From Halisarca cf. caerulea (Eukaryota > Porifera > Demospongiae > Chondrillida > Halisarcidae): 64,000 nt of DNA. The translations under genes and the position numbers were made by a program. Position 1 is the stretch's first letter, and each line of letters begins with the position of its first letter. The notes below the pieces were generated by a model that had not been told where the DNA came from, did no database searches, and saw only the letters and a list, made by a program, of their open reading frames with translations. The stretch spans positions 103,501 to 167,500 of the forward strand of contig CAUJGJ010000030.1 of NCBI GenBank assembly GCA_963170055.1. Reading direction: 5' to 3'. Shown here piece after piece: positions 6,001 to 57,554 of this stretch.

Positions 6001-9000
6001 AATTAATGAAATGCTTCCATTATTTTTTCATTGTCTTGAATAAAGTTTGATTAGGCACTATACAATTCTTGATTGTTGGGTCTCTGCCAAATGTCCAACC
6101 TGAATATTTTTGGGTTGGGCAGAATTGTCAGGCAATGGTTGATTGCCGCATTACTTCTAACACTGCTTTGAATGTAATTCAAACACCCTCCACCTCAGAC
6201 AACCCAAGCTCATCTCTGTCAAGTATACATAAGTGGACAGTACCACTCAATTTTCTGGTTCAGCATCACAGCAACCCACAGCTGGCTATTACACCTCTAA
6301 TGGAATTCATAATGGAGTAAGCACATACAGTGCATCGATTGTATTGTTAATTGCATGTGATCCTTCTGTATATACAGTACTGACTGAAGGTAATAACACC
6401 GTCCACTCGCGAGTATGTCGCGTGTGCTTACTGTCACCCTTGTGGTCATCGCGAGGCCTGGCGAGGCCTCGCGGTATTATAAACACATTCCATACTGTTC
6501 CCTTCATATGAGTAAAGGTTACGCAACCATAAAATGTCGTCGAGCAGGAAAGCGCTATACTGCTGTGCGAATGGCCCTAGGTTCTTCATGTATACTTCGA
6601 AGCGTATAATATTATGTTCGTATTCGTTGTTTTCGGCTATTCGGGCGTGACATATTCTAAAAGTTAAAGTTCAGCCGAAGAATAAGTGCGGTTTAGCGTA
6701 GGTGTTAATAAGTCGGAATTGCTCCATTCTCGCTGAACGTGTTAGTTTTATTCTTGTCGATCTGAAGTGAAGTTCTCTATCTACTAATTCGAGATGCCCA
6801 AGCGACTGTCAGCTTACAGTAGGAAGCGGATAATCTCTCTCACCAAACAAGGCAAGAGCGCGGTGGAAGTAGTTGCGATCCTGCGAGAAGAAGGCGTAGC
6901 AACGACAGCCAAGACTGTGAGAAAGTGGTCACACCGCTGGAATTCCAGCCTTGGACTTGAAGATCACCATAGAAGTGGAAGAAAGTCGAGGATAACTGGC
7001 GAAATATCTTTTTTTGTAGAGGAGCAGCTGATTAAAGACGACGAGATTTCATCGAGGGAGTTAGCATATCTTGTGCATAAACAATTTGATACAAAGGTTT
7101 CCCCTTCAGCCTTGAGAATTCATATGAGGAATAAACTGCAATGGACTGTTGTGAAAACACGCTTTGGACCGATGATATCTGAAAAGAACAAGGAGAAGAG
7201 AGTGTTATTCGCCCAAGATTGTGTAGCAAAAGGAGACACATTCGATGACGTCATCTGGACTGACGAAAGCACTGTTCAGCTTACTAGACATGCACAGAAC
7301 ATGAGAGTAAAAGTTGGGAAAGAAAGAATTTTGAAGCCAGCTGCCAAGCATGCAGTAAAAGTCAATGTTTGGGCAGGTATCTCCAAAAGAGGGGCTACAA
7401 AGATTTGCATATTTGATACCATAATGGATTCCGACCTATACATTGATATTTTGCGTCACCATCTTGTGCCATTTCTAGAGACGTTTGAAGAAGGATACAG
7501 GTTCATGCAAGATAATGACCCAAAGCATACCTCTCGAAAATCTAGGGAATTCTATGAAAGCGAAGGTATCAATTGGTGGAAGACTCCAGCCAGTAGTGCG
7601 GACTTGAATCCGATTGAAAGAGTGTGGCATGAGATGAAGCACTATTTGGCCAGATATGTGAAACCACTGAATAAATCAGAACTGGTAAAGGGAATACAGC
7701 AGTTTTGGCGTCAACGCATGACAAAATCAAGATGCCAACGTTACATCCAACATGTCCACGTTGTTCTTCCCAAAATAATTGAAAAGAAGGGAGGAATCAC
7801 AGGAGAATAGATATGATATACAGTATAGCTACTCATGCACTGACAATATTTACTGTCTTCTATCATTTTTCATCATCACACCTGAATATAATATTTTATT
7901 CCTTTTTAAATTAATATATATTAGTTAATGGTGCTGTACAATATATAGTAATGTATATAAGTGTCAATAATAAATAGCTGATATAGACTGTAAGCCTGTA
8001 CAGTATAAGAAACATCAAAGTCATTACTGTAATCAATATTTTTTGACATGTCGTTTCAATCTTCGACAGCTTTCATTGATAGCCACTTTGTATCTTTTCC
8101 ATGTGCTTTCATCAGTTTCACCAGGCTTGATGGGATACACAGAATACACACATTCTTTAATGGCCGACATTCTCTTCGGTGATAGCATCCTTTTTCCACA
8201 ATCTCCTGTACAGTTGGACTGGCTCATCTCTGCCTTTGTGTAGCACTTTCGCACTAGCAACACTGCAAAATTGACCTCCGAGGAAGCTTTTCTGTAACAT
8301 TCATCTTTTACAGATTGCTTAATGCGTTTCGGACTATCTGGGCCTCCACTTTCCAGAATGTTTTCCAAATTAAGTTCTTCCTCCATAACTTCATGGTCAC
8401 TTGACTGTGGAACTGCCAAACTGTATCTGTTGGGGGTACTGTGTTGTGTGCAGATGTTAGAGGGACAGTGTGGGCTGCTATGATCACGAGGGACAGGTGA
8501 CATAATATGGTGATTGTGAGGAAAAGGCCTGTCATAAGCATAAAGTATGGGTGAAAAAGGAGGTCTATCATATGAATGTGCATGACATACATGGGTATAA
8601 GGAGACCCATCCCAGGGATAAGAATGAATGTAAGGATAAGGAGCTAGTGGACCACCGTAAGGACGAGCATAATGTGGATGAGGGTATGGAGACCATTCAC
8701 AGTGATATGGATGGCTTGTTTGTTCTGGTGATCTGGTCCATTGGCAGTATGATGGTCTGATTGGCTGGCGATATGGCGATCTCATCTGTTGCCGATATGG
8801 TGATCTCATCTGTTGCCGATATGGTGATCTCATCTGTTGCCGATATGGTGATCTCATCTGTTGTCGATTTGGTAATCCGCTCTGTTCACGATATGGTGAT
8901 CTCATCTGTTGTCGATTTGGTAATCCGCTCTGTTCACGATATGGACTCGCTTCGATTTGCTCAGGGTTATGCACAAAGCTGTCTTCATTCCTCAATCCCA

Positions 9001-9267
9001 CAATGGTGCCTTCAGACATTTGTGATACCTCGCAGATGTTCTGCGAGGTTTCAAATCTGGCCACTGGTAGGTTTTCCCCTTCTTGGTAAGGGATTTCCTC
9101 AGAGACCATTACATCATCTGGTGCTTGATTCTCAGCATCAACATTGCTTTCTTCACAGCTACTGACATTGGGTGAACCCGAAGCTAACCATGCAGTCCCT
9201 CCCTCAGTTGCTTTCCGTTTCTAACAAAGATCAGAAAAAAAATTAATAAAGAAATTGTATGACTGTG

Positions 9268-9339
<72 letters not shown>

Positions 9340-9381
9340 GTGTATGCAGATATGTATGTATGTATGTATGCATGCATGCAT

Positions 9382-9438
<57 letters not shown>

Positions 9439-12400
9439 CATATCCGGTATTTTTTTTACTTTTCATGGTAATACTGTAGAACCTAGCTTATCCAACCCTC
9501 AAAGTAATGGCACCTCAATTAACCAGGCAATGTTTCATGAATGCATCTATAATCAGTGCTAATGTGAAGTACATTATTGGTCTATAGCTGCATCTTGTGA
9601 TGTATATGTGTGTAAAATCAGGTAAAACAACTGGTAGAAAGCATCCACTCAATCTTGTCATTTCTTAAAGGAAATTGAAGAATAACAAGGAAATGCAATG
9701 TGGAATGTTTCAGTCTACAGAGTACTGCAGGATTCATACTTAGGGGCACTCCTTGGTCCCAAACTGCCTGATAATCAAGGTTCTACTGTGATTGTATTAG
9801 TAACAATATTTGTAGTGTGTATAGTCACATTATGATAACATTATGCTAACTATTAACCAAATTTATACATGAATTTTTTATCAGCAAAATGGCCGTCTGT
9901 ACAATGACATCGGTTTTGTTTAGAAAGTAATAATTACCCTATTCTGATTTGCGAGCACTTAATGGGTTAAGTCTTAACATGAGTATGAAAAGGTATTCGG
10001 ATATATCTACACGTGAAAACATGTTCAATTGAAACCATTGCATGCATACGCAGAAAAAAAACAACTAAACAGCTTCGTACCGTTTGTTTCTGCTTCTTCG
10101 TACAATCCTTTTTCTGCTTCTTCGTACTATCCTTTTTCTGCTTCTTTGTATCTTTTCTTTTTCGTACCTTCTTCGCGGGTGGTTTCCAATCCAGTAAATC
10201 TTTCACAATCCCACGGAAAAGTCTTCCACGATGTCTCATTCGGACAACTGCACCGACAGAGATGTCCTGCGGGTCCTCTATAGCGAGGTGCTTCACGTTG
10301 ACCCTGTTCTCGTCCGAATCGCCTTTCTCCTTATCTATCCATTCAATCAGAACGTAATTCTTCCCCATCGTGCAATCGCAGTTACTTCCAATGGCACCTA
10401 AGTGGAACTTTTTAAATTTAATATACGCTATTCGAGCACAATATTCTAGTCGAATTGTGGAATTCTTCGCCATGGGTGCTAACGGTGATAATCGTCGCCA
10501 CCAAAGGTGATAACAAGTGCGAGGCCTTGCGAGCACCTTCGAGGTGCGTACAGCCCTCACGGATCGCTCGCTGTTCCCACGCGAGAATAGGTACCATTAC
10601 CTTCAGTCAGTACTGTACAGTATAGTTGCTTCACTTCGCCTGTTTGGTTGTTTGAGTGTTAACTGTTACTTTACTGCATTCTTAATTCAGAGAATCATCG
10701 CAGCAAGGAAGTTTCAAATCATCGAAAAGCATGCAGCCTCTACTCATGGCTCTTAAGCTCACTTGGTTTCTTGTCTCTTCTGCACAGCACAAACAAAAAC
10801 AAGGTCCTTGTTAATTGGATTGCATCTGTTGTAAACAGTGCTGTTTTGAGTTGGAATTCTCTTTTTCATTGTAATCAGATCCAAGTGGAATAAGGGCATT
10901 GCAGTCAGTTTTAGAATTAGTATCTTGCGATGGTTTAGAGCGACTAGTGACTCTTTTGCAGGTGTGTGCATTGGAAGTAGCCAGTATATTTTATATTGTT
11001 GAATGGATGGATGTAGAGGCATACATTGTGTACAATAGAACCTCTTATAGTGGACTTCACTAAGACAATGACACACTACATTAAGCCGCTCTACACTGCA
11101 CGTGATAAGGGTCTGAAAGTATGTCCTCCATGTAGTTCTGGTGCATTTTCCACCTTCAAAACTAGACAACCTGCTTACAAGAGATGAAGCAGCTGAATGT
11201 TTGATGTAACAAAGTGCTCCATATCTGGCTGGAATTTCACTGTATGTACAGTACTTTAATGTAATACTAATGTGATCTCAAAATTAATTACGTAATACTG
11301 ACATATACAATCATGCAACATGATAGAAAGAGAGTGAGGACTGAAATTGAATGAATAAATGATCAGTATATTAGCAACTCATTGTTCTGTTTGTAGTTTT
11401 TTTTCACTTTTTTACTCTATATCTTCGATAGAAAGCTGTTGATACGTGGATGCCATTTTGGAGACACCATCTAGTGCCTACAGTATCCAGCCAGCGTTGC
11501 TTGGTAGCTACTGTGACTCTTAATCTTAGCTTGCTCAAGGCCATTTATTTGGAATTTACCAAAGATAGTACTTTTCAGGTACTGTTGGCATGTGTGCAGA
11601 GTCAAACCATAATACACACTTATCATTTTGCATTCTGTGTACTAAATATACAACATATAGTATATATATATAGTATGTACCTTCTGCAAACACTACATGT
11701 GTTCATGGAGGTACAGTCGCACCTGGTTTTCTGACTCTAGGTTTTCTGAAAACCTCTCTTATCTGACTCTTTGTGGTGAATCCTCATCGCTAAGTCCTGT
11801 ACAATTTTGCCTGATTCATCCAACACCTGGCATATCAGACACATTTTACAAGGGAGAAACATGGTCGTATAAACCAGTTCCCACTGTATATACTTATATG
11901 TATGCATGCTTTTATGTACAGGGTTTTAGCTAAAGCAGGGTAGCAGAGTGGTACCACCCTGCTTTCATTTTCCCACCCTGTAAGGAATTGACTGCCCATT
12001 TTACTGTGATATTGTTTAATATTGTTAGCCACCTGCTTGAAATCATGGGGATTATGAGTACAAGGGCAGAAATTAGTTAATTTTGCTTTACACTGACTTG
12101 GATAAAAATATTGTGGCAGATTGTAATAAGAATTCAGTGTACTACAATCACTGACTGATGCTATACCCCCTGTTATCCTGACTAGAACACTGATGTATGT
12201 ACAGTACATGTGGAATTCATATGCTGAAAATAATCTATTCTATTTATTGGTTTACAGCTTTTGAACTCCAACTTGTTGAAAACTCTATTTTCTTTGCATA
12301 TGGTGTTTTGTATCTCGCCTGTTGCTCGAGTATTCTCTCAAGTTTCTGATGAAATTGAGGTATTGGTAGTGGATATTTTGTCGCTGTATTCATGCAGTGT

Positions 12401-49014: not shown

Positions 49015-57554
<8,540 letters not shown>

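Follow-up and report, generated by a model that had tools for sequence, protein, structure and literature searches.

Can a Tc1/mariner transposon leave the single-protein habit of its superfamily and come to work with a second protein of its own? The question is raised by an element within a 64,000-nucleotide stretch of the genome of the sponge Halisarca cf. caerulea (contig CAUJGJ010000030.1, positions 103,501 to 167,500), in which a transposase gene and a gene for a BEN-domain protein lie between one pair of ends. Below, 'the window' means this whole stretch, coordinates without a prefix are window positions, and strand is given where a feature has one. The need for nothing beyond the transposase is held to explain the easy spread of Tc1/mariner elements between species. 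That they require only their own transposase is set out in PMC5704228 (this and the other papers cited by PMC number are drawn on in excerpt). We find that the two-gene element is a lineage and not a one-off. If a probable DNA- and chromatin-binding partner has been kept across deep divergence, Tc1/mariner would be shown capable of evolving a two-protein system, and a link between CpG methylation and transposition would become open to test.

Two genes inside one pair of ends

The element spans 4,241 bp (6375..10615) and is bounded by perfect 20-bp terminal inverted repeats of sequence CAGTACTGACTGAAGGTAAT (left, 6375..6394, + strand; right, 10596..10615, - strand), with a TA target-site duplication immediately outside each (6373..6374 and 10616..10617), just as the first-pass annotation of this DNA had described. 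Chance ends were considered and ruled out, as the 20-mer CAGTACTGACTGAAGGTAAT has 12 matches in the 194-Mb genome and its reversed-letter control has none.

The first gene (6794..7810, + strand) encodes an intact DD34E transposase of 338 residues that matches Pfam DDE_3 (1.1e-18) and HTH_32 (3.9e-10); its triad is D157, D240 and E275, with 34 residues separating D240 and E275. The protein resembles the Sleeping Beauty transposase in the PDB (1.2e-21) and shares 43% identity with a coral protein annotated as Tcb2 transposase. Among the 120 public transposase relatives listed, one carries a species name, that of a coral, and identities of 54–65% and of 40–45% occur among them; several are near-identical to copies in the host genome and could, to judge from that likeness, derive from this species or one very close to it. 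No transposase relatives were confirmed on viral or prokaryote contigs. By its transposase, ends and target the element classifies as a Tc1-like DD34E element of the Tc1/mariner superfamily: it shares the catalytic triad, the helix-turn-helix N-terminus, the TA target and ends beginning CAGT. Such elements usually hold a single gene, although this is not strictly defining, whereas here a second gene lies inside the ends.

That second gene runs convergently towards the first, with 222 bp between the two stop codons. In the inferred splice model, exon 1 (10081..10368, - strand, 96 residues) is followed by an 860-bp GT-AG intron with a TA/CA microsatellite (9221..10080, - strand) and by exon 2 (8033..9220, - strand), which encodes a linker and a BEN domain (Pfam PF10523; 8060..8269, - strand). 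The predicted protein has 491 residues, and its Pfam BEN match scores 3.8e-7 and 30.6 bits against a cut-off of 23.2. The splice model is supported by three relatives that hold the whole protein in one open reading frame, of 541, 582 and 611 residues. The annotation's account of an intact transposase and, at the stated spacing, a spliced BEN gene wholly inside 6375-10615 thus holds.

The two genes move as one unit

Four complete copies with identical ends, 4,241–4,259 bp long, were found at four different TA sites (C30, which is the window, C176, C369 and C373). They differ by 0–2 substitutions plus microsatellite length, and the transposase and BEN genes therefore move together; the first-pass annotation had named further copies of this kind, complete with ends, genes and TA duplications, as its support. 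Near-identity at the sequence level also suggests recent activity. Two further copies are interrupted by assembly gaps, one at C241 with the whole transposase and part of the BEN gene, the other at C448 with part of the BEN gene and one end. An internal-deletion derivative of 990 bp (C29:184199-185188), about 2.6% diverged from the full element, keeps both ends and, like the four complete copies, its TA duplication. Its insertion site is a tandem array, which reads uninterrupted again once the flanks are joined by a single TA. A search for an empty allele of the window insertion found none and matched only the two flanks of that insertion.

The gene pair recurs across diverged transposases

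A BEN-type gene lies within 3.5 kb, the distance used for pairing, of 79 of the 107 detected transposase loci, against 0.4 expected by chance. Counts of both genes are of detected loci and so are lower bounds (at least 107 transposase loci, further transposase fragments from another listing having been left out of this number). The paired loci comprise 57 convergent, 21 divergent and 1 same-strand arrangement, and pairing reaches 48 of 60 among loci with at least 230 matched residues. A first count had left 57 of 107 loci unpaired; it was dropped, the number falling to 28 once very diverged BEN-type genes and Pfam matches were added. The proposal of a new two-gene lineage is thereby upheld, but not the convergent layout as a constant feature, since a related group is divergent. 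The outcome that the annotation had set against itself, other copies with only a transposase and BEN genes outside such ends, is mostly not what we see, yet 28 of the 107 transposase loci lack a detected second gene and 24 of 103 second-gene matches have no transposase detected within 3.5 kb.

The pairs fall into several groups. In lineages A and B the BEN gene is downstream on the other strand (27 convergent loci), and the transposases are 56–61% alike to that of the window when full-length and 46–73% as fragments; for eight B elements, including one deletion derivative, the two ends could be identified (TA CAGTRSTGATNA and variants), with the gene or genes enclosed. Group C has its BEN gene upstream on the other strand, forming a divergent pair at 21 loci, with transposases 31–48% alike to the window's, and the ends enclose both genes in all three elements checked, which represent two subfamilies. 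Group D, on C29, is convergent and intronless and has its own ends. Group E came to light at C303; its second gene is convergent and encodes a BEN-type C-terminus that has diverged very far, and the family adjoins 28 transposase loci and is convergent every time. Where both ends were found, and deletion derivatives excepted, elements measure 3–4.2 kb.

Four of the 28 unpaired transposase loci were read individually. The 3' side of C369:5648804 consists only of N. At C118:915626 both ends and BEN exon 1 are retained and exon 2 is gone, and C40:1053911 (C40:1053521-1055592) is a partial copy (95% alike) for which the stretch read (L006) gave no BEN match. C40:2802721 was read over 2.5 kb on its upstream side and 1.5 kb on its downstream side, and no BEN gene was seen there.

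Some further observations were made at these loci. The partial copy at C40:1053521-1055592 carries an inverted duplication of part of the left region. Upstream of the transposase at C40:2.80M, an open reading frame (L078:221-985) resembles a Harbinger-type, DDE_4-like transposase, a name given by eye only. Transposase matches of the E lineage often break at about residue 176-184 (C3:1818992-1820082, C79:3583235-3584325, C24, C301, C5 and others), which looks in these alignments as if an intron lay inside the catalytic domain. The best Pfam BEN match of the genome search is at C412:6754823-6755029, in an open frame of 403 residues with no transposase detected within 3.5 kb; it is possibly a host or domesticated gene, or an element whose transposase went undetected.

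One architecture for the second protein

The second proteins of A–D share a common architecture of N-terminal domain, variable linker and C-terminal BEN domain, together with a loosely conserved LGSxxP-like motif. The same N-terminal domain is present in the two E members whose N-terminus was recovered. In the window protein this domain (10189..10359, - strand) has five elements, mainly beta, and is weakly Tudor/SH3-like in a low-confidence fold model: the single-sequence prediction has a predicted local distance difference test score (pLDDT) of 62.8, and its best match, the KDM4A double Tudor domain, is weak at E 0.21. Linkers in A–D are either proline-rich and repetitive or coiled-coil. In-frame tandem repeats make up the linker (window 8726-8941, 24-bp unit; also L060, L065, L085 and L086) and vary between copies and lineages.

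Pfam BEN scores are above the cut-off in the relatives L079, L036 and L053 and below it in L032 (18.9 bits). L084 scores 12.9 bits and L082, L085 and L086 have no listed BEN match, so that these four are placed by profile comparison only. The C-terminus of E is weak by sequence alone (9.5 bits, E 0.14), with Pfam BEN above cut-off in none of four members. When the four-member E profile was compared with a profile of the other BEN domains, the probability was 96.7, and 50 column-shuffled controls gave 3.1 at most. A public sequence search, repeated with a 12-row alignment, turned up nothing related to the BEN protein except the window's own; this search is weak, given a repetitive linker, genes that may be unspliced in the set searched and scoring only of candidates that share exact words.

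Transposase and BEN protein diverge in step

BEN-domain distances track the distances of the paired transposases, with a Mantel r of 0.93 over 16 pairs (four of which rest on partial sequences) and 0.76 over the 12 pairs from A and B; none of 20,000 permutations reached the observed r. The matched divergence that the annotation had anticipated for the two proteins is therefore present. Between subfamilies, BEN domains show nonsynonymous divergence (dN) of 0.22–0.39, with synonymous divergence (dS) saturated or about 2. Among recent copies, dN/dS is 0.47–0.53 for the whole BEN reading frame, one pair excepted, and 0.55–0.89 for the transposases.

In a 43-row tree, rooted at its midpoint only, D and E are separated from A/B and C, and public relatives lie between the two sides. 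The divergent rows group together in a single clade (100/100), represented by three rows in this tree and five in another, of 21 loci. The pair is seen across transposases down to about 31–40% identity, and these patterns would fit either a gene pair ancestral to the group or one gained more than once. A single ancestral origin is favoured because the second proteins share one architecture.

CpG-rich DNA just inside the ends

The inverted repeats themselves are poor in CpG; six convergent elements have none in their first 26 bp. Just inside them lie CpG-rich stretches: at bases 26–156 the CpG observed/expected ratio is 1.22–2.11 in all nine subfamilies. In the window element these are the left (6401..6530, 1.16) and right (10460..10589, 1.27) subterminal regions, and the left one contains the palindrome ACTCGCGAGT (6405..6414), within which CTCGCGAG is the core of the BANP motif TCTCGCGAGA (PMC10206803). 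Short motifs in these stretches vary by subfamily and include ACTCGCGAGT, GTGTACAC, ACACGCGTGT, TCCGCGGA and others. The ends were compared with random window stretches, element middles and flanks. The whole window stands at 0.43, as does the mean of 500 random pairs of window stretches, whose 95% quantile is 0.99; element middles lie at 0.30–0.67, and the flanks of six of the eight elements at 0.23–0.49.

Promoter CpG islands were tried as the whole cause of the CpG-rich ends and rejected. The ends of divergent elements are not promoters and are still CpG-rich (1.45–2.1, against 0.59–1.21 in the shared promoter gap; three elements, two subfamilies).

Across the ends, 8-bp palindromes total 27 against 12.5 in dinucleotide shuffles, and repeated 9-mers 86 against 9.2, with none of 500 shuffles as high in either case. 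CpG content is nonetheless the firm signal and the palindromes a weak one, because the excess of palindromes over random window stretches is modest and that of repeats is not significant in every subfamily.

A proposed partner protein at the ends

BEND3 (3e-13) and BANP (2.6e-8) are the best PDB matches of the BEN profile A4, which retrieved no NACC1, BEND6 or other BEN protein up to E 10, and the last helix of the BEND3 BEN4 domain aligns with the last helix of the BEN domain in the window and in L028. Both proteins select CpG motifs (PMC11472053, PMC10206803), unmethylated ones in the case of full-length BANP (PMC11472053), whose binding site is TCTCGCGAGA (PMC10206803). Recognition of the inverted repeat by the Tn3 transposase likewise involves a BEN-like fold (PMC9579193), and in En/Spm the protein TNPA binds subterminal repeats and is needed together with TNPD (PMC2613891).

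From the results above, and by analogy with TNPA, we think it probable that in the BEN protein the element encodes its own binder of subterminal CpG motifs, which helps transposition along and probably gates it. For this protein we infer DNA binding, partnership with the transposase and methylation sensing. The transposase would bind and cut the 20-bp ends at TA sites, as its homology to other Tc1 elements implies, and the C-terminal BEN domain would bind CpG-containing motifs just inside the inverted repeats. The variable linker or coiled coil could allow the BEN protein to multimerise or to bridge the ends, and the Tudor/SH3-like N-terminus might touch chromatin or the transposase. The BEN protein would thus mark the ends and help to bring them together, much as TNPA works beside the catalytic TNPD, and transposition or expression would probably respond to methylation of the ends. 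Movement of the element may depend on, or be controlled by, this second protein.

A more far-reaching account is possible, though on balance we doubt it. A Tc1/mariner lineage would have given up single-protein autonomy, its self-encoded Tudor-BEN protein reading unmethylated CpG at its own ends, and perhaps histone marks too, to license movement. Binder and sites would have coevolved through several sublineages, and the pair would have turned between convergent and divergent layouts.

Several results weigh against a partner protein that reads the ends. The end motifs are not constant between subfamilies, and the isolated BANP domain was insensitive to methylation in one study (PMC10206803). 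Two of the eight flanks are themselves CpG-high (1.22 and 1.17), and the enrichment extends to about 200 bp and, at the left end in the window, takes in the 5' leader (1.79). A random pair of window stretches holds on average 2.28 palindromes and 4.57 repeats (median 1 for repeats), compared with 3.0 and 9.6 per element, and the repeat excess is significant on its own in five of nine subfamilies and not in the other four. The predicted folds, of low confidence, gave no match at E <= 0.001, and a structure search with the C29 BEN domain alone found no BEN structure. Finally, BEN dN/dS is 1.55 in one recent pair, on few changes.

The BEN protein may instead act outside the transposition reaction, countering silencing or acting on chromatin so that the element stays transcribed or its chromatin permissive, and at the CpG-rich ends it might be a transcription factor only. 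We regard this as rather unlikely, although it is the alternative that survives best. BANP and BEND3 are CpG-island chromatin proteins (PMC11472053), the modelled N-terminus is weakly Tudor-like, and in convergent elements the CpG-rich ends coincide with the 5' ends of the genes. In divergent elements, however, the CpG-rich parts are the ends and not the shared promoter gap, and the BEN protein diverges in step with the transposase.

A self-encoded repressor that keeps copy number low, either by occupying the ends or by silencing the transposase, is less plausible still. Given sites at both ends, a DNA-binding protein of the element could act in this way, and TNPA of En/Spm is reported to regulate both positively and negatively (PMC2613891). 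Some active copies should, however, have lost a protein that only represses, whereas the recent near-identical copies keep intact BEN genes, an argument that is not decisive.

The passenger hypothesis, in which one element picked up a host BEN gene that does nothing for it, is largely refuted and very improbable: the unpartnered second-gene matches show that BEN genes without a detected partner exist, and the single high dN/dS ratio points the same way, but the pairing far exceeds chance, and the pair spans strongly diverged transposases with one architecture and matched divergence.

Relation to known systems

A parallel within the superfamily is offered by the ciliate TBE/Tec elements, which also combine a Tc1/mariner DD34E transposase with extra open reading frames, one of them reversed (PMC4724952, PMC7325037). 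These have three reading frames, however, the extra proteins being a 22kD protein, a 57kD zinc-finger/kinase protein or a site-specific recombinase, whereas the window element has two genes, the second encoding a BEN protein. The likeness to TNPA/TNPD of En/Spm (CACTA) is one of analogy, a DNA-binding second protein with repeated subterminal sites (PMC2613891), the binding being predicted in our case; the En/Spm transposase is unrelated, its ends are different, and TNPA and TNPD arise by alternative splicing of one gene. BEND3 and BANP have the closest BEN domains among solved structures but are host proteins, not transposon-encoded. In Tn3-family TnpA the BEN-like fold of DBD1 reads transposon ends (PMC9579193), but as part of the bacterial transposase itself and not as a separate protein. 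Among the matches listed in a search of excerpts of the open-licence literature, with Repbase outside its scope, we found no publication on a BEN gene in a eukaryotic transposon or on a BEN-carrying Tc1/mariner element.

Elsewhere in the window, exons of a BLM-like, RecQ-type helicase lie at 50573-57554 on the + strand, with matches to DEAD, Helicase_C, RecQ_Zn_bind, RQC and HRDC.

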